A stretch of DNA of 43,970 bases from NCBI GenBank assembly GCA_023249475.1, contig JAHFCO010000018.1, forward strand, positions 1 to 43,970, written 5' to 3'. A model generated the notes under the pieces. That model saw nothing but the letters and a program-made list of their open reading frames with translations, searched no databases and was not told the DNA's origin. Source of the stretch: Bacillota bacterium (GTDB lineage: Bacteria; Bacillota_I; Bacilli_A; Erysipelotrichales; Erysipelotrichaceae). The number at the start of each line of letters is the position of its first letter. Within the stretch, counting starts at the first letter, position 1. Below, in pieces: positions 6,900-14,648 of this stretch. The position numbers and the translations under genes were made by a program.

Positions 6900-8219
6900 T
6901 CAACTTTCTTTGGTTTCAAGATACGGGAAGAATTTCGTATCCTCCATGGACATATGATACACGAAAATCTCCCGTACGATATAGTCGACCACGGAAAAAT
7001 AATCCGCCAATCCGCTATCCAACTTGGTTTTCATCAACGCCAGGTCATGTTTGATGCGTTGGTGCTCCGTTTCGTGGAACTCATGGTAGGGGTAGGAGAT
7101 TTCCTTGAAGCGTCTTTCTTCATACTGCGTATGGTCGCGATAGAACGCGATGAACGCCTCGATCCTCGCAATCCGTTGCGGATCTTCCTGCAGCGGGATC
7201 AGGGTTTGCAGAAGTTCGTTGATCCGATGGAGCAGTTCTTTGTGTTGATGGTTGAGTTCCTTGTCCGGGGAATCCAAGAGCTTGATCCAAGGGATCTTCC
7301 CCTGGTGCCAGGAATCGCTGACGAACCCTTCCCAATCGACGATCCGGTTCCGCCCGTCGTGTTTGGCTTTGGAAAGGCAGAAGTCCGTTCGATGGAACCA
7401 CTTCTCAAAGGTCTCCCCGGGTCGGGATTGCGCGATCCCGAAACTGGCCGTGATGTGACCGACGATCGGAAATTTGGTTTTCTCCACGAGTTTCCTTAGT
7501 CTCTCGGCGATCTGCGACGCCGTGGCGCTATCGGTGTTGCGGGCGAAAATCAAGAATTCCTCCCCGCCCCACCTGAACACGATGTCGACCTTCCGCATCG
7601 ATTCTTTCAACACGAAACCGAACTCGCGCAACACTTCATCGCCGGCCTGATGCCCGAAGCGATCGTTGACGTTCTTGAACAAGTCGAGGTCCGCCATGAT
7701 CAACGAATGGCCTTGCGGGTGCATCGGGTCATCCATCTTTAAATCCTCGATGATCTTCTCCAGACTCGCCCGGTTGGGCAAACCCGTCAGCGTATCGGTG
7801 CCGTAGAGCGTTTCCAATTCGGACTCCCGCTCCTTTTGCGCCTGGATGTCGGTGAAACTCTCCAGAACATACGGTCTTCCTTCGATTTCGATCCGCGTGA
7901 CACGCTTAAGGATCGGGATGTTCTTCCCGTTCTTCCCGAGGATCATCCGTTCGTCCAAATCGATCGAGCGGGCATGATCCAAGAAAGGACAATGGTCCGC
8001 TTCGGCCGGGCAGATGAAATCATGACAGCGCGCGCCAAGGATTTCCCCCTCTTCCCACTGCGTCATTGTCAGTGCGACGCGGTTGGCATAGGAAATCCGA
8101 CGCGTCGAGGCGTCGATCAACACCACCCCGCACACCAGATGGTCGAAAACATCCTTCCAGGGTTTGAACGGATCATTGATCGTTTGATTGATGAGTTGAG
8201 GATACAGCGATTCTTCCAA
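6900..8219 (-). CDS. PAS-GGDEF-hemerythrin diguanylate cyclase
   Basis: A 439-residue cytoplasmic protein with no membrane segment. A PAS domain (about 20-128) carries three Cys (C65, C70, C77) in CHDFICPAEADHCPF. A GGDEF domain (about 138-297) has an intact GGEEF active site at 218-222 and an RKVD inhibitory site at 209-212, five residues upstream. It should make c-di-GMP from two GTP with product inhibition. A hemerythrin domain (about 310-435) has H324/H326, H363-x3-E367, H382/H386 and H422-x4-D427, consistent with a di-iron O2 or NO site. The start is TTG 8217-8219, because AGGGGGCGG precedes it and no ATG lies closer. It is the first gene of the four-gene operon, behind a clear promoter. 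O2/redox control is inference from domain content. Confidence 0.93.
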   Translation of the reverse strand: MEESLYPQLINQTINDPFKPWKDVFDHLVCGVVLIDASTRRISYANRVALTMTQWEEGEILGARCHDFICPAEADHCPFLDHARSIDLDERMILGKNGKNIPILKRVTRIEIEGRPYVLESFTDIQAQKERESELETLYGTDTLTGLPNRASLEKIIEDLKMDDPMHPQGHSLIMADLDLFKNVNDRFGHQAGDEVLREFGFVLKESMRKVDIVFRWGGEEFLIFARNTDSATASQIAERLRKLVEKTKFPIVGHITASFGIAQSRPGETFEKWFHRTDFCLSKAKHDGRNRIVDWEGFVSDSWHQGKIPWIKLLDSPDKELNHQHKELLHRINELLQTLIPLQEDPQRIARIEAFIAFYRDHTQYEERRFKEISYPYHEFHETEHQRIKHDLALMKTKLDSGLADYFSVVDYIVREIFVYHMSMEDTKFFPYLETKES

Positions 8220-9660: not shown

Positions 9661-9725
9661 AAGGGGTGATATCAAGAAATTTTCATCTTCAAGCCACGTT
9701 ATCCCGGGGTCCAAGCCGTAAAAAA

Positions 9726-9750
9726 AGAAGAATGTCCAGGACATTCTTCT
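9726..9750 (-). terminator. Strong Rho-independent terminator downstream of metQ
   Basis: AGAAGAATGTCC and GGACATTCTTCT form a 12-bp near-perfect palindrome. On the minus strand a run of seven T follows. It lies about 135 nt beyond the metQ stop, so the met operon transcript would carry a long structured 3' region. Confidence 0.8.
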
Positions 9751-9753
9751 CAG

Positions 9754-9883: not shown

Positions 9884-10684
9884 TTACCAAACCGGGATCT
9901 GGGACCCGTTATAGTCATCCAGGATGATCTGTTTGACTTCGTCGGTCTGGAAAAGTTCGACGATGCGAAGCAGGACTTCATCGTCCTTGTCTTCCGTACG
10001 CGCGACGATCACGTTGATGTAGGGGTTGTCGGAGGTCAGGTTGACTTGTTCCAGGACGAAGGCGTCTTCGGTCGGGATGAACCCGGCGTCTTCCGCCACG
10101 CCCGAATTGATCGCCGCGAAGGCGACGTCGGGTAGCAGTTGGGGGATGTTGGTGGCGGCGACTTCCTTGATGTCGAGGTTCTTGGGATTGGACGTGATGT
10201 CCTTCAGTCCCGGGATCAATCCGGCCGCATCGTCCACTTCGATCAAGCCTTGCGCTTCAAGCAAGAGGATCGCGCGTCCTCCGTTGGTGACATCGTCCGG
10301 GATGACGACGATGTCGCCGTCCTTGACTTCGGCGATCGTCGAGATTTTGTCCGAATACAAACCCATCGGCGCGATGATCGTCTTGCCGATCGGGGTGAGG
10401 TCGTAGTTCTGGGCCGCGATTTCCTTATTCAGGTAGATCACGTGTTGGAACGCATTCAAATCGAGTTCGCCGGCATTCAATGCGGCGTTGGGTTGGGGGT
10501 AGTCCGTGAAGGCGACGATTTCGATCGTGATGTTCTCTTTGGCGGCTTGTTCCTTGACGTAGGTCCAGGCTCTGGATTCGCCGATGATCCCGACTTTGAC
10601 GACGACGGCTTCTTTCTTGGCGGAACATGCTCCAAGCGTTAAGACAAGGGCCAGGAGGACGAGGACGGTTTTGATGTGTTTCAT
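9884..10684 (-). CDS. metQ: Methionine ABC transporter substrate-binding lipoprotein MetQ
   Basis: A 266-residue lipoprotein of the NlpA/MetQ family. The signal sequence ends in a lipobox, LTLGAC, with the acylated Cys at residue 20. Conserved family blocks follow: KVGIIGESRAWTYVKEQA, DYPQPNAALNAGELDLNAFQH and GKTIIAPMGLYSDKI. It captures methionine (L and possibly D or oxidised forms) at the outer face of the membrane and delivers it to MetI. The start is ATG 10682-10684 with an AAAGAGAG stretch upstream, 27 nt after the metI stop. It is the last gene of the operon and is followed by the hairpin cluster. Length and motifs are typical; substrate is supported by the methionine T-box upstream. 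Confidence 0.93.
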   Translation of the reverse strand: MKHIKTVLVLLALVLTLGACSAKKEAVVVKVGIIGESRAWTYVKEQAAKENITIEIVAFTDYPQPNAALNAGELDLNAFQHVIYLNKEIAAQNYDLTPIGKTIIAPMGLYSDKISTIAEVKDGDIVVIPDDVTNGGRAILLLEAQGLIEVDDAAGLIPGLKDITSNPKNLDIKEVAATNIPQLLPDVAFAAINSGVAEDAGFIPTEDAFVLEQVNLTSDNPYINVIVARTEDKDDEVLLRIVELFQTDEVKQIILDDYNGSQIPVW

Positions 10685-10711: not shown

Positions 10712-11392
10712 TCAATGGGTGGTCTTTTTGACCACGTAGTTCCCGATCCCTTGGACGAGGCTGACAAGGATCAGGATGACGAGGACCGAGACATAGGTGA
10801 TGTCGCTCATGAATCGGTTGTGTCCGTAGCGGATGACGAAGGCACCCAATCCTCCCCCGCCCACCGCCCCACCCATGGCCGTCAGACCGATGAGACTGAT
10901 CAGGGTGATGGTCGTGCCGCGGGCAAGCGACGGGATGCTTTCACGCAAGAGGACGCGGGTGATGATTTCGAAGGGGGTGGCTCCCATCGATTGGGCCGCT
11001 TCGATCAGACCGTGGTCGACATTGGACAGCGCCATGTCGACTTGACGGACGAAGAAGGGGGTGGCGCCGAAGACCAAGGGAACGATCGCGCCTTTGACCC
11101 CCAATCCCGTGCCCATGATGATCCGTGTGAGCGGGATCAGTGCGGTCAACAGGATGATGAAGGGGATGGAGCGGAAGAAGTTCACGATGCGGTCCAGGAC
11201 TTCGTGTACGATCGGATGGGGCAGGATGCCTTTGGGTCGGGTGACCACCAGGACGACCCCGAAGGTCAGACCGAACACGAAGGAGAAGAAACCGGAAACC
11301 CCAAGCATGATGAGGGTTTCTTGGATACTGATCAAGAACTCGTCGAAGTATTCGATCAGGTTCGGGATGTATTTCAGTACGCCATCAACCAT
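10712..11392 (-). CDS. metI: Methionine ABC transporter permease MetI
   Basis: A 226-residue integral membrane protein with five predicted helices. It contains the permease EAA loop that contacts the ATPase, visible as GLIEAAQSMGATPFEII, and the family segment SIPFIILLTALIPLTRIIMGTGLG. It forms the methionine channel with MetN and MetQ. The start is ATG 11390-11392, with GGTGAT upstream, and it overlaps the metN stop by 8 nt, implying translational coupling. Length is normal for MetI (about 217-230). Confidence 0.94.
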   Translation of the reverse strand: MVDGVLKYIPNLIEYFDEFLISIQETLIMLGVSGFFSFVFGLTFGVVLVVTRPKGILPHPIVHEVLDRIVNFFRSIPFIILLTALIPLTRIIMGTGLGVKGAIVPLVFGATPFFVRQVDMALSNVDHGLIEAAQSMGATPFEIITRVLLRESIPSLARGTTITLISLIGLTAMGGAVGGGGLGAFVIRYGHNRFMSDITYVSVLVILILVSLVQGIGNYVVKKTTH

Positions 11393-12410
11393 GGGATATC
11401 ACCTCCACTTTCACACTGTTTCTGAGCGCTTCGATCGCGGAACGTCTTCCTTCGACCGAGCCGCTCAATATCACGACCAGGGTTCCCAGCGGGACATCCT
11501 GGATGATATCGATGTTGGCATAGACGATGTTGGTGTCGACCTGATATCGTCGCGAGATGTGCGAGATCAGGGGATCGGCGGTTTGGGAACCCACGAAGTC
11601 GATCCGCAGGATGTCGTCCTCGGGGGAAATCTTGAAGGTCCCTTGCGGGTTTCGTAACAGTTCGATGAAGCGCTCCGCTTGGTGCGTGCTCTTCACGAAC
11701 GATTTGGTCGTGGGGTGTTTGGGTTCGGAGAAGACCTCGACCACCTTGCCGGTCTCCACCAAATTCCCACCGTCCATGACGGCGACATGCGTGCAGATCG
11801 CTTTGATGACGGCCATTTCATGGGTGATCAGGATGATCGTGATGCCGAGCTTGCGGTTGAGATCGTTCAATAGGGACAGGATTTGTTGGGTGGTCTGCGG
11901 ATCCAGCGCGCTGGTCGCCTCGTCGCAAAGCAGGACGTCGGGGTCGTTCGCCAAAGCCCGGGCGATCGCCACCCGCTGTTTCTGCCCTCCGCTGAGTTGG
12001 GAGGGATAGGCGTTGATTTTCTCCTCGATCCCGACCAAGGTCAATAATTCGACGACTTTCTTGCGGACGTCTTCCGTCTTCATCCCTTTGAGCGGAAACG
12101 CGACGTTCTCATAGACCGTCCGCGAGGTAAAGAGGTTGAATTGCTGGAAGATCATCCCGATCTTCTTTCTCACCTTCAAAAGTTCGTCGGGTTTCAATCG
12201 CATAAAGTCGACATCGTGATGTACGACTTCCCCGTTGGATGGACGTTCGAGGAGGTTGATGCATCGCACCAAGGTGCTCTTGCCGGCTCCGCTCTCGCCG
12301 ATCACCCCGAAGATCGATCCTTCCGGGATCGTCAAGGTAAGGTTGTTGACGGCGTGGATCGATTTGTTTTCCAGGTTGAATGTTTTCGTGATGTTGCGTA
12401 GTTCGATCAT
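11385..12410 (-). CDS. metN: Methionine ABC transporter ATP-binding protein MetN
   Basis: A 341-residue ABC ATPase. Walker A is GESGAGKST (about 38-46), followed by the Q-loop IFQQFNLF, the signature LSGGQ, Walker B VLLCDEATSALD and the switch His in ILITHEM. The C-terminal ~80 residues (DDILRIDFVGSQTADPLI onward) form the NIL domain, which in MetN binds methionine and inhibits transport when methionine is plentiful. The start is ATG 12408-12410, preceded by GGAGAG and 10 nt after the M20 stop. Second gene of the T-box operon. The order M20-metN-metI-metQ implies joint control of transport and amidohydrolase. Confidence 0.95.
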   Translation of the reverse strand: MIELRNITKTFNLENKSIHAVNNLTLTIPEGSIFGVIGESGAGKSTLVRCINLLERPSNGEVVHHDVDFMRLKPDELLKVRKKIGMIFQQFNLFTSRTVYENVAFPLKGMKTEDVRKKVVELLTLVGIEEKINAYPSQLSGGQKQRVAIARALANDPDVLLCDEATSALDPQTTQQILSLLNDLNRKLGITIILITHEMAVIKAICTHVAVMDGGNLVETGKVVEVFSEPKHPTTKSFVKSTHQAERFIELLRNPQGTFKISPEDDILRIDFVGSQTADPLISHISRRYQVDTNIVYANIDIIQDVPLGTLVVILSGSVEGRRSAIEALRNSVKVEVISHG

Positions 12411-12420
12411 GGTCTCTCCT

Positions 12421-13608
12421 TTACGTTGTCTGCTTGGCGACTTCTTGCGCGTGTTGGGTTTTGATCTCTTGAAGCAATCGCGGATCCAAGAGGAGATCCA
12501 GGGCGCTCAGGGCAAGGAGTTTCGCACCCAAGGCGATGGAATCCAAACCAAGTTGGCCAATGGATGCCTCTTTGAACGCTTGGCTATGGGCCGCGATCGG
12601 CGTCTCGCTGATTCGGATGTGGGGATGGATGGTCGGCACAACCTGGCTGACGTTTCCCACATCAGTCGAGCCGATCCCTTGATGGTTGGTGAACTTCTGT
12701 CCGAAGGATTCAAGATGTTTTCGATAGACTTCATCGAACAACGGGGTCGGGACGACGTTGTCGACGCTGTTCTGGAAGAGACCGAATTCGTAGGTGCAGC
12801 CGGTTTGAAGGGCTGCCCCTTGCACGATGTTTTCCACTTTCTTGTAGACCGTGTCCAGTGTCGCACGGGTCGCCGCACGGAGATAGAAACGCGCTTTGGC
12901 AAGGTCGGGGACGATGTTGGCGGCGGTCCCCCCATGGGTGATGACCCCGTGGATGCGTACATCGGAAGGAAGATGCTGACGCAGGGCGTTGATGCCGTTG
13001 TAGACTTGGATCAAGGCGTCCAGGGCGTTGACCCCTTGTTCCGGGGCACTGGCCGCATGCGACGATTTCCCGTGGAAGACGATATCCACCGGATCGTTGG
13101 CCAAGGAAGCGACGGTGGGACTATGCCGATCGCCGGGATGGACGCATAGAGCCGCATCCACATCCTTGAAGAACCCTTCGCGGACGAAACTGCCTTTCGC
13201 GCTGCCGTTCTCCCCGCCTTCTTCACCGGGCGTGCCGTAGACCCGCACTTCCCCGCCGACTTCGTCGATGACTTGTTTCAACGCCGCCCCCGCAAGCGAA
13301 GAGGTCGCCCCGAAGAGGTTGTGTCCGCATCCGTGTCCCAAGCCTTCCAAGGCGTCGTATTCCGCCAGGAAGACGATCACCGGTCCTTCTTTCGTCGTGT
13401 ACCGCGCATCGAAGCCGGTCGGATGCCCCGCCACATCGATCGTGGTGATGAACCCTTCCTCGATCAACTGATTCGATAAACGCCCGCATGCATAATACTC
13501 GTGATTGCTGGTCTCGGGACGGGCGTGGATATCTTTCGCGATGTCCTGATAGACCGCGAGCTGTCGGTCGACATAGTCGACGATTCTTTTCTGAAGTTCC
13601 GTTTTCAT
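12421..13608 (-). CDS. M20D-family metallopeptidase/amidohydrolase (AbgB-like)
   Basis: A 395-residue cytosolic enzyme. Metal-binding motifs are HGCGHN (about 100-105) and GTPGEEGG (EE pair), followed by GKSSHAA in the lid/dimerisation domain and a late His in SETPIAAHSQAF. The sequence is closest in feel to aminobenzoyl-glutamate hydrolase AbgB and related N-acyl-amino-acid or dipeptide hydrolases of M20D. The start is ATG 13606-13608 with GGAGGG at a 5-nt spacing. It is the first gene behind the T-box, so its substrate is plausibly an N-acyl- or peptide-bound methionine, but that is inference from context. AbgB-type enzymes cannot be separated from acylases by eye. Confidence 0.85.
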   Translation of the reverse strand: MKTELQKRIVDYVDRQLAVYQDIAKDIHARPETSNHEYYACGRLSNQLIEEGFITTIDVAGHPTGFDARYTTKEGPVIVFLAEYDALEGLGHGCGHNLFGATSSLAGAALKQVIDEVGGEVRVYGTPGEEGGENGSAKGSFVREGFFKDVDAALCVHPGDRHSPTVASLANDPVDIVFHGKSSHAASAPEQGVNALDALIQVYNGINALRQHLPSDVRIHGVITHGGTAANIVPDLAKARFYLRAATRATLDTVYKKVENIVQGAALQTGCTYEFGLFQNSVDNVVPTPLFDEVYRKHLESFGQKFTNHQGIGSTDVGNVSQVVPTIHPHIRISETPIAAHSQAFKEASIGQLGLDSIALGAKLLALSALDLLLDPRLLQEIKTQHAQEVAKQTT

Positions 13609-13620
13609 GTTCCCTCCGGT

Positions 13621-13656
13621 AAAATATAAAAGCCCTCATCCTAAGGACGAGGGCTT
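13621..13656 (-). terminator. T-box expression-platform terminator
   Basis: On the minus strand AAGCCCTCGTCC and GGATGAGGGCTT form a 12-bp stem with one G-T pair and a 3-nt loop, followed by a T-rich run. Its 5' arm adjoins the T-box sequence, so antitermination and termination compete. Confidence 0.88.
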
Positions 13657-13887
13657 ACCCGTGTTACCACCTTTGTTTGTTGTTTCCTCAAAGAAACAAC
13701 CTCATCAAGTACGACCGGAATCCGGTTTATACTCTATCGCGTTAACGGGCGCTTCCGTCATAGCCTAAGGTTTCCCCTCGGTATGCAACTCCAAGACCAT
13801 GTTCATTCGATCGGATCTACCCCTTCCAGCACTTCAGGGCTCTCTATGAAATCCTCAGGAACTACTTTTCTCTTCACAGTTTTTCTG
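13621..13887 (-). promoter_or_regulatory. T-box leader, methionine-specific
   Basis: The minus-strand leader carries the T-box core AGGTGGTAACACGGG at 13658-13673, followed at once by the terminator hairpin. The 5' part contains the stem I AG-bulge region AGAGAGCCCTGAAGTGCTGG. In the specifier position GAAC is followed by ATG (13798-13800) and a purine, so the codon is methionine. The bulge TGGT would pair with the ACCA end of an uncharged tRNA, in agreement with discriminator A of tRNA-Met. When methionyl-tRNA is scarce the antiterminator forms and the M20-metNIQ operon is transcribed. Exact 5' and 3' ends are estimates. Confidence 0.9.
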
Positions 13888-13893
13888 AGTTTC

Positions 13894-13922
13894 ATTTTAT
13901 TCAGTTTCATGGGCAATGTCAA
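13894..13922 (-). promoter_or_regulatory. Sigma-A-type promoter of the T-box/M20-metNIQ operon
   Basis: Minus-strand TTGACA (13917-13922) and TAAAAT (13894-13899) have a 17-nt spacer. An A/T-rich palindromic tract just upstream could act as an UP element. Transcription would begin near 13887, right at the 5' edge of the T-box leader. Confidence 0.8.
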
Positions 13923-14022: not shown

Positions 14023-14331
14023 TTACTGTTCCCCTTTGACCCGTACGTCTTTCATATCCTTGCTTGTGATCATCAAGCGTCCGGTCACCAAAAGCATGAT
14101 CGGATTGACCACGTACATGAAAACGATCAGGGGCAGTTTATAGGGGAAGGAATTCGGGATGAAGATGATCATCGGAAGGGGGGCATAGATCAGGGTCATG
14201 AAGATGTTGGTCTTGAGTTGACGCACCTTGTGTTTGAGGTCGCCGGTCGCCACATAAGTGATGCCGGTTCGTTTGTCGGTGACTTCCGCGAATCCATATC
14301 TGAAAAGATTGAAAACCGCTTTTGGGATCAT
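14023..14331 (-). CDS. Two-TM membrane protein, paralogue B
   Basis: A 102-residue protein. The N-terminal soluble part reads FRYGFAEVTDKRTG, then TYVATGDLKHKVRQL, followed by two hydrophobic segments (about 43-60 and 66-86) and a charged C-terminus. It is clearly a paralogue of the next gene upstream: both share F..GF..V.DK.TG..Y.ATG.L..K...L. No family is recognised. The start is ATG 14329-14331 with a GGAG-type site upstream, 17 nt after the stop of the paralogue. It belongs to the PfkB kinase operon. No clear terminator follows. Confidence 0.65.
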   Translation of the reverse strand: MIPKAVFNLFRYGFAEVTDKRTGITYVATGDLKHKVRQLKTNIFMTLIYAPLPMIIFIPNSFPYKLPLIVFMYVVNPIMLLVTGRLMITSKDMKDVRVKGEQ

Positions 14332-14348: not shown

Positions 14349-14648
14349 TTACTTCTCCACAATGTCTTTCAGATCGTCAAGAACGATGATGCGTTTCCCC
14401 AACCAGAAGAATAGCGCGGTCATGGCGAAGAAGTAGCCGATCACGACCACGAATTTCAAGGCGGGGTTGTTTAGGGTCGTATTGATCAAGAGGACGGAAT
14501 TCACCCCGACCATGATCAATCCATAATAATTCAAACGCGAGATCTTCTTCGCAAGCGTCCCGGTGGCGTAGTACACCTTCCCGGTTTTCTTGTCTTTGAC
14601 CGATTTGAATCCAAGTCTGAATTGCTTCAACAGGAATTGTTTATCCAT
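14349..14648 (-). CDS. Two-TM membrane protein, paralogue A
   Basis: A 99-residue protein with the soluble N-terminal motif FRLGFKSVKDKKTGKVYYATGT, followed by two membrane helices (about 39-58 and 64-84) and a short tail. It shares its whole layout with the downstream 102-residue protein, so the pair arose by tandem duplication. The start is ATG 14646-14648, preceded by AAGG at 8 nt, and it overlaps the PfkB kinase stop by 8 nt (translational coupling). The function is unknown; both N- and C-termini are probably cytosolic given the charge distribution. Confidence 0.68.
   Translation of the reverse strand: MDKQFLLKQFRLGFKSVKDKKTGKVYYATGTLAKKISRLNYYGLIMVGVNSVLLINTTLNNPALKFVVVIGYFFAMTALFFWLGKRIIVLDDLKDIVEK

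Follow-up and report, generated by a model that had tools for sequence, protein, structure and literature searches.

A probable methionine-salvage operon with an HmrA-type M20D peptidase gene and metNIQ behind a predicted methionine T-box

Gene organization of the locus

The window analysed here is the whole 43,970-nucleotide (nt) stretch of contig JAHFCO010000018.1 (assembly GCA_023249475.1), from a gut-type bacterium of the Erysipelotrichaceae. On its minus strand, a T-box leader precedes the gene of an M20D metallopeptidase and the genes metN, metI and metQ of a methionine ATP-binding cassette (ABC) transporter (Table 1); together they probably form a methionine-salvage operon. An earlier note made from the sequence alone (the original prediction) had placed an M20 amidohydrolase gene behind a T-box and ahead of metNIQ. 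This layout was confirmed by the RF00230 match (gathering score 93), by the amidohydrolase model TIGR01891, which scored above its cut-off on the M20 protein, and by the models for MetN, MetI and MetQ.

The strong terminator that competes with the antiterminator sits upstream of the M20 gene, which is the arrangement expected of a T-box, and a GGAGGG ribosome site precedes the M20 open reading frame (ORF). The M20 gene and metN are 10 nt apart, metN and metI overlap by 8 nt, and 27 nt separate metI from metQ. The transporter was identified as MetNIQ by a MetN with a NIL domain, a MetI permease and an NlpA-type lipoprotein, with NCBIfam scores below the strict cut-offs.

Table 1. Features of the predicted operon in the window and arginine-type T-boxes of other M20D loci
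Feature	Coordinates	Strand	Evidence or remarks
Promoter-like site TTGACA-17-TAAAAT	13894..13922	-	11/12 matches; abuts the T-box start; 1 found in that stretch, 1.4 expected by chance
T-box leader, Stem I to antiterminator	13640..13886	-	RF00230, 98.0 bits, E 1.7e-20, complete model 1-219
Specifier codon AUG; next base a purine (G, 13797)	13798..13800	-	Rfam alignment; conservation
Antiterminator bulge UGGU, predicted to pair with the tRNA ACCA end	13666..13669	-
Intrinsic terminator, excludes antiterminator	13630..13656	-	12 pairs and T tail; stem segment -20.6 kcal/mol
M20D metallopeptidase, HmrA type, probable Met-X dipeptidase	12421..13608	-	395 amino acids (aa)
E129-E130-G131-G132, catalytic glutamates and GG insert	13213..13224	-
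metN, methionine ABC transporter ATPase (ABC_tran and NIL)	11385..12410	-	TIGR02314, 405 bits, below equivalog cut-off 499.7
metI, permease	10712..11392	-	PRK10782.1, 211.3 bits, cut-off 212
metQ, lipoprotein (Lipoprotein_9)	9884..10684	-	Best solved relative 1p99; TIGR00363 194, cut-off 228.85
Terminator-like hairpin after metQ, operon end	9725..9751	-	12 pairs and T tail; chance expectation for the stretch 3.2, found 3
Arg-type T-box, locus L182	1195-1480		Reads GAA-CGC-R; bulge UGGC
Arg-type T-box, locus L184	1179-1470		Reads GAA-CGC-R; bulge UGGC
Arg-type T-box, locus L183	2650-2940		Reads GAA-CGC-R; bulge UGGC

Specificity of the T-box

The original prediction had read the specifier as ATG, and the structure alignment of Rfam indeed puts AUG in the codon position with a purine next to it. 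The genome of the window contains 13 T-boxes, and the same codon register was correct at six of the seven amino-acid-named T-box genes: tyrS (UAC), serS (UCC), ileS (AUC), metG (AUG), asnB (AAC) and pheS (UUC, taken from the sequence because only ten alignments were covered). The exception is the hisS T-box (L008), which reads GAC (Asp) in this register; perhaps aspS lies after hisS. In the T-boxes of relatives, ATGG is invariant in all 16 aligned rows, from which L062, L066, L094 and L021 (regarded as a duplicate of L020) were left out; L066 and L094 likewise read ATGG. These alignments make AUG a firm assignment.

A register one base upstream would give the specifier CAU and a T-box that senses His tRNA. 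The window alone permits this reading (GAA-CAU-G), and one-base register shifts were seen in other T-boxes examined. However, the base that completes CAU varies, being A in 14 of the 16 rows and C only in those of the window and its sister, while ATGG is invariant; the His reading was therefore rejected. The metG T-box of the same genome has GAAC-AUG-A, and the genes downstream of the leader are methionine genes, so that the chance of a His sensor is negligible.

The bulge TGGT had also been taken as a match to tRNA-Met. The fit itself holds, since the three CAT-anticodon tRNA genes of the genome all end in A-CCA (A73), initiator and elongator tRNA-Met being alike at this discriminator. But TGGT was ruled out as evidence for methionine because it is the default bulge of this genome (10 of the 11 readable T-boxes); its U can also face G73 by wobble. 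It is thus by the conserved AUG specifier that the leader is classed as a methionine T-box, which presumably binds tRNA-Met.

Recurrence of the methionine linkage

A search at the order level gave matches at E 1e-30 in 47 of 148 genomes, and 14 matches had an identity of at least 54%. Ten of these 14 have the order T-box-M20-metN-metI-metQ, with the T-box within the fetched flank; the eleventh has a T-box ahead of metN-metI-metQ-M20. Among the remaining three, one M20 gene lies beside MetI and MetQ, one has a MetN-like ATPase only, and one has neither. In the sister genome G136 (locus L044:4199-5602), metN and metI are each matched by two segments that differ in frame; the cause may lie in the assembly or in genuine frameshifts.

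The named loci are the best 80 of 583 confirmed candidates. MetN, MetI or MetQ lies within 1.5 kb of the M20 gene in 43 of them, and an S-adenosylmethionine (SAM) riboswitch (33 loci) or a T-box (6 loci) was found in 39. These elements were detected with two models built for this analysis, R1 and R2; at the 33 of these 80 loci that were also scanned with the models of Rfam, the results agreed, save at L094, where the T-box was matched by R2 only.

The arrangements differ among lineages. All four Enterococcus loci have T-box-metNIQ-M20, with tandem T-boxes in three of the four according to Rfam. A further T-box-like end (R2) just 3' of M20 in L065:7456-7537, L067:7425-7512 and L069:7376-7458 of this genus probably controls the next gene. 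Both Sedimentibacter loci have SAM-M20-metNIQ, and many loci of Bacillaceae and Planococcus have SAM-metNIQ-M20. M20 and a divergent metNIQ carry separate SAM riboswitches in Fonticella and two Clostridium loci (L089, L100, L111). Moreover, the loci of Staphylococcus rostri, Macrococcus brunensis and Macrococcoides caseolyticum (L091, L101, L113) lack metNIQ, yet their M20 gene has a SAM riboswitch. These divergent and stand-alone SAM-controlled copies are the most telling evidence of the linkage.

The same gene order under methionine T-boxes and SAM riboswitches, which the original prediction had proposed to look for, thus recurs across the Firmicutes under two independent methionine-sensing RNAs. 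For this reason, a methionine role of the gene is strongly supported.

Identity and phylogeny of the enzyme

The best solved relative of the M20 protein is HmrA of S. aureus (3RAM; 390 bits, E 1e-115, residues 7-388). The second best is the Xaa-Arg dipeptidase (PM20D4; 7yh4 and 8xzc; 188 bits). The AbgB-type protein 3io1 reached 64 bits, and the label AbgB-like, under which the enzyme had first been described, was ruled out by these scores. The nearest named relative is from the Erysipelotrichaceae metagenome-assembled genome (MAG) UBA12416, with 93% identity among the best 80 of 583 candidates.

A quick tree was reconstructed from 107 M20D rows, which were picked by similarity to the clade of the window and are not a random sample. 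L024 was left out of alignment A1 for a stop codon, and L021, L030 and L035 were left out of the tree. The residues C94, H96, E129, E130, H157 and H341, the metal-ligand and catalytic positions of the family, are identical in all 107 rows. A branch with a Shimodaira-Hasegawa-like approximate likelihood ratio test (SH-aLRT) value of 100 separates 67 rows, which include the window and the staphylococcal copies, with S. aureus HmrA itself within the staphylococcal branch. By this placement and the full-length similarity to 3RAM, the enzyme is classed as an HmrA-type M20D.

Rows were scored as linked when they had a metNIQ neighbour or a methionine riboswitch, the latter label being scored for the named loci only; the scoring disregarded the R2 matches in L127 (two, E about 0.001) and L118 (one, E 0.044). 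Linked rows make up 59 of the 67 in the clade, across the Firmicutes, versus three of the 40 outside. These three were labelled by a MetN-like ATPase alone, which in L060 (the one inspected) is part of a polar amino-acid transporter. The label 'none' changes eight times on the tree, versus a mean of 34.7 after shuffling, and none of 500 shuffles was as low. L070 (a Succinivibrio MAG, Pseudomonadota) and L074 (Bifidobacterium saguini, Actinomycetota) are clade members among Firmicutes rows; transfer or misbinning is possible for both.

Two glycines (the GG insert) follow E129-E130 directly in all 67 clade rows, versus a gap at this place in 39 of the 40 outside. The residues S136 and Q279-N280 likewise separate the clade from the outside rows. 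The GG insert beside the catalytic glutamates is, on these alignments, a new mark of the clade.

A second set of 19 loci, drawn from 392 genomes of the phylum, may repeat some of the 80 named records. Six of its loci carry the insert, and in three of these MetI or MetQ is encoded within 1.5 kb; one of the three has, on a wider view, tandem SAM riboswitches as well. The 13 insert-less loci are all without metNIQ. The signature thus predicted metNIQ linkage with only half success; it marks the clade, within which the linkage is common but not a rule.

Insert-less M20D genes and arginine-type T-boxes

Among the 13 insert-less loci, three from one genus (L182-L184) have a T-box directly upstream of M20D, and these T-boxes are of an arginine type (Table 1). 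In the genome of L182, the one checked, all four tRNA-Arg found have G73, an exact fit to the bulge; tRNA-Ala was not found in this genome, and in the genome of the window tRNA-Ala has A73. In the two of these three loci that were scanned (L182 and L183), the gene after M20D encodes an SBP_3-permease protein with matches to Lys/Arg/Orn and Arg models. Two further cases have a register that is not certain. In L060, the genes of a polar amino-acid ABC system and of M20D follow a T-box read as CGC; the T-box of L127, which precedes YfcC and M20D, can be read as AGA (Arg) or, with a shift of one base, as AAG (Lys). Moreover, yfcC and an M20D gene of C. difficile were reported to be under a lysine riboswitch (PMC11477304).

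These observations suggest that M20D contains a methionine kind and a basic-amino-acid kind, with few lineages behind the division. The methionine kind would be characterized by a Met T-box or SAM riboswitch, metNIQ and the Met-X activity reported for HmrA. The basic kind would include the Arg-type T-boxes (L182, L183, L060), the Arg- or Lys-type one (L127), the C. difficile lysine riboswitch and the Xaa-Arg dipeptidase. A wider pattern, in which M20D dipeptidases divide by amino acid, each kind being wired to a sensor and a transporter of the same amino acid, with the GG insert marking the methionine kind and its lack the basic amino acids, is tentative and somewhat less probable than even. 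If true, substrates within this otherwise generic family of enzymes could be predicted from the sensing RNA.

Proposed function and alternative explanations

During methionine shortage, uncharged tRNA-Met would pair with the leader at two places, the AUG specifier through its CAU anticodon and the UGGU bulge through its ACCA end. In the tRNA-bound leader the antiterminator would form and the terminator would not, and a single transcript M20D-metN-metI-metQ would be made. MetNIQ would import methionine and might also take up small methionine compounds; in the cytosol, the HmrA-type M20D would cut methionine off Met-X dipeptides from peptide uptake or protein turnover. We give this reading, a methionine-salvage operon under a tRNA-Met-sensing T-box with M20D as a Met-X dipeptidase, a probability of about 0.7.

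The original prediction held that the enzyme frees methionine from N-acyl, formyl or dipeptide conjugates. Its methionine part is borne out by the recurrent Met T-box and SAM order; among the conjugates, dipeptides fit best because the near relative HmrA has been assigned Met-X dipeptidase activity (Jamdar 2015). The further idea, that a substrate could be assigned to a generic AbgB-like protein, has been overtaken, since the enzyme is of the HmrA type and most of the assignment has already been published.

The genome (96% complete) has no match to PF01717, PF02965 or PF04204 of methionine synthesis, other routes not having been searched; one PF02574 match and weak PF01053 matches were found. 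The missing matches suggest that the organism may depend on methionine uptake. MetQ was also considered as a dipeptide binder. Its best solved relative, 1p99 (189 bits), is S. aureus PG110/GmpC; GmpC reportedly binds Gly-Met. The E. coli-type MetQ 4yah scored nearly as well (176 bits), and nothing follows for the ligand.

Several points weigh against a methionine-salvage operon with a Met-X dipeptidase. Eight of the 67 clade rows have neither link (four of the five Staphylococcus loci, L070, L077, L096 and L023), and three of the six GG-insert loci of the second set are without metNIQ within 1.5 kb. In S. aureus, a change of the specifier did not abolish binding of the initiator tRNA (PMC3771891), so the codon alone is no proof of the tRNA that is bound. 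HmrA has also been called an endopeptidase (Botelho 2011).

This last description, together with the gene names dapE and 'resistance factor HmrA', would suit a DapE or cell-wall peptidase that is co-transcribed by chance, and the M20 gene of the S. suis met operon is indeed named dapE (PMC12063423). However, the DapE models stay far under their cut-offs (65.7 of 289, 26.1 of 304.2 and 20.8 of 284 bits), and chance co-transcription does not explain the repeated Met T-box and SAM control, which makes this explanation very unlikely. The enzyme might instead be an N-acyl- or N-formyl-methionine amidohydrolase, which would unblock N-blocked methionine either made by the cell or imported through MetNIQ or another carrier. 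TIGR01891 is an amidohydrolase family, and a review places HmrA among peptidases with aminoacylase activity (PMC11511702); whereas the Met-X assignment of HmrA and the Xaa-Arg dipeptidase as second-best solved relative both point to dipeptides, and an amidohydrolase of this kind appears improbable.

A metal-supply explanation has been stated for amhX (COG1473), by which the gene would stand in metNIQ operons because MetNIQ imports metal ions for a metalloenzyme (PMC12452182). But the models class MetNIQ as a family of methionine transporters, and the gene keeps a SAM riboswitch where metNIQ is missing from the locus or divergent; this explanation is hardly credible. The Met-X dipeptidase reading makes coherent sense of the two unrelated methionine sensors and the reported activity of HmrA: the gene would serve to release methionine from peptides under methionine shortage.

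Other features of the window

Two small ORFs of 102 and 99 aa (14023-14331 and 14349-14648, minus strand) lie between a PfkB-type kinase gene and the T-box. They have no Pfam or NCBIfam match, and their adjacency is kept in the sister genome G136. A purine riboswitch (28966-28865, minus strand; 77.6 bits) lies upstream of a minus-strand gene run resembling a purine operon. The protein encoded at 6900-8219 (minus strand) has PAS, GGDEF and C-terminal hemerythrin domains and is possibly an oxygen- or iron-linked diguanylate cyclase.

Comparison with known systems

The association of M20 with metNIQ and, largely, the Met-X assignment are known from print. New are the GG insert that marks the clade and the insert-less M20D genes behind Arg-type T-boxes with basic-amino-acid transporters. 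The literature search, which covered few subscription journals, recognised no paper that joins Met-X activity to methionine riboswitches. It is a modest surprise how widely the linkage occurs, that SAM-controlled copies stand alone, that a GG insert marks the clade and that there is an Arg-type parallel. The parts are of known kinds, but taken together they account for a gene that usually goes under a wrong label: genes of this kind have been named hmrA, hmrB, dapE and amhX or amidohydrolase in papers and models, and have been explained by drug resistance, lysine synthesis and metal supply. If the wider pattern is true, riboswitch specificity could be used for substrate prediction across the M20D family.

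The metQ-hmrB-metNP operon of S. pneumoniae also contains an M20 hydrolase gene within a methionine ABC transporter operon, and this gene was up 2.9-fold without added methionine (PMC5359408). Unlike the locus of the window, that operon has the protein regulator CmhR, no T-box and another gene order. For the metQ-dapE-metN-metI operon of S. suis, a release of methionine residues from degraded polypeptides has been suggested (PMC12063423). The amhX operons of the Bacillota have the same gene set under T-boxes or SAM riboswitches, amhX occurring in nearly one third of the metNIQ operons under tandem SAM or T-box elements (PMC12452182). The account of them covers tandem riboswitches only and offers the metal-supply explanation; whereas the window has a single T-box, for which a methionine-peptide reading is proposed.

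S. aureus HmrA is a full-length relative of the same clade, with the same catalytic residues and EEGG motif; however, the Staphylococcus copies are not beside metNIQ in the five loci seen, and only one of the five has a SAM riboswitch. The Xaa-Arg dipeptidase shares the M20 family with the enzyme of the window, but it has no GG insert after the glutamates in the alignment and is named for Arg dipeptides. The yfcC-M20D operon of C. difficile likewise ties M20D to an amino-acid-sensing RNA and a transporter (PMC11477304); its amino acid is lysine, whereas that of the operon in the window is methionine.
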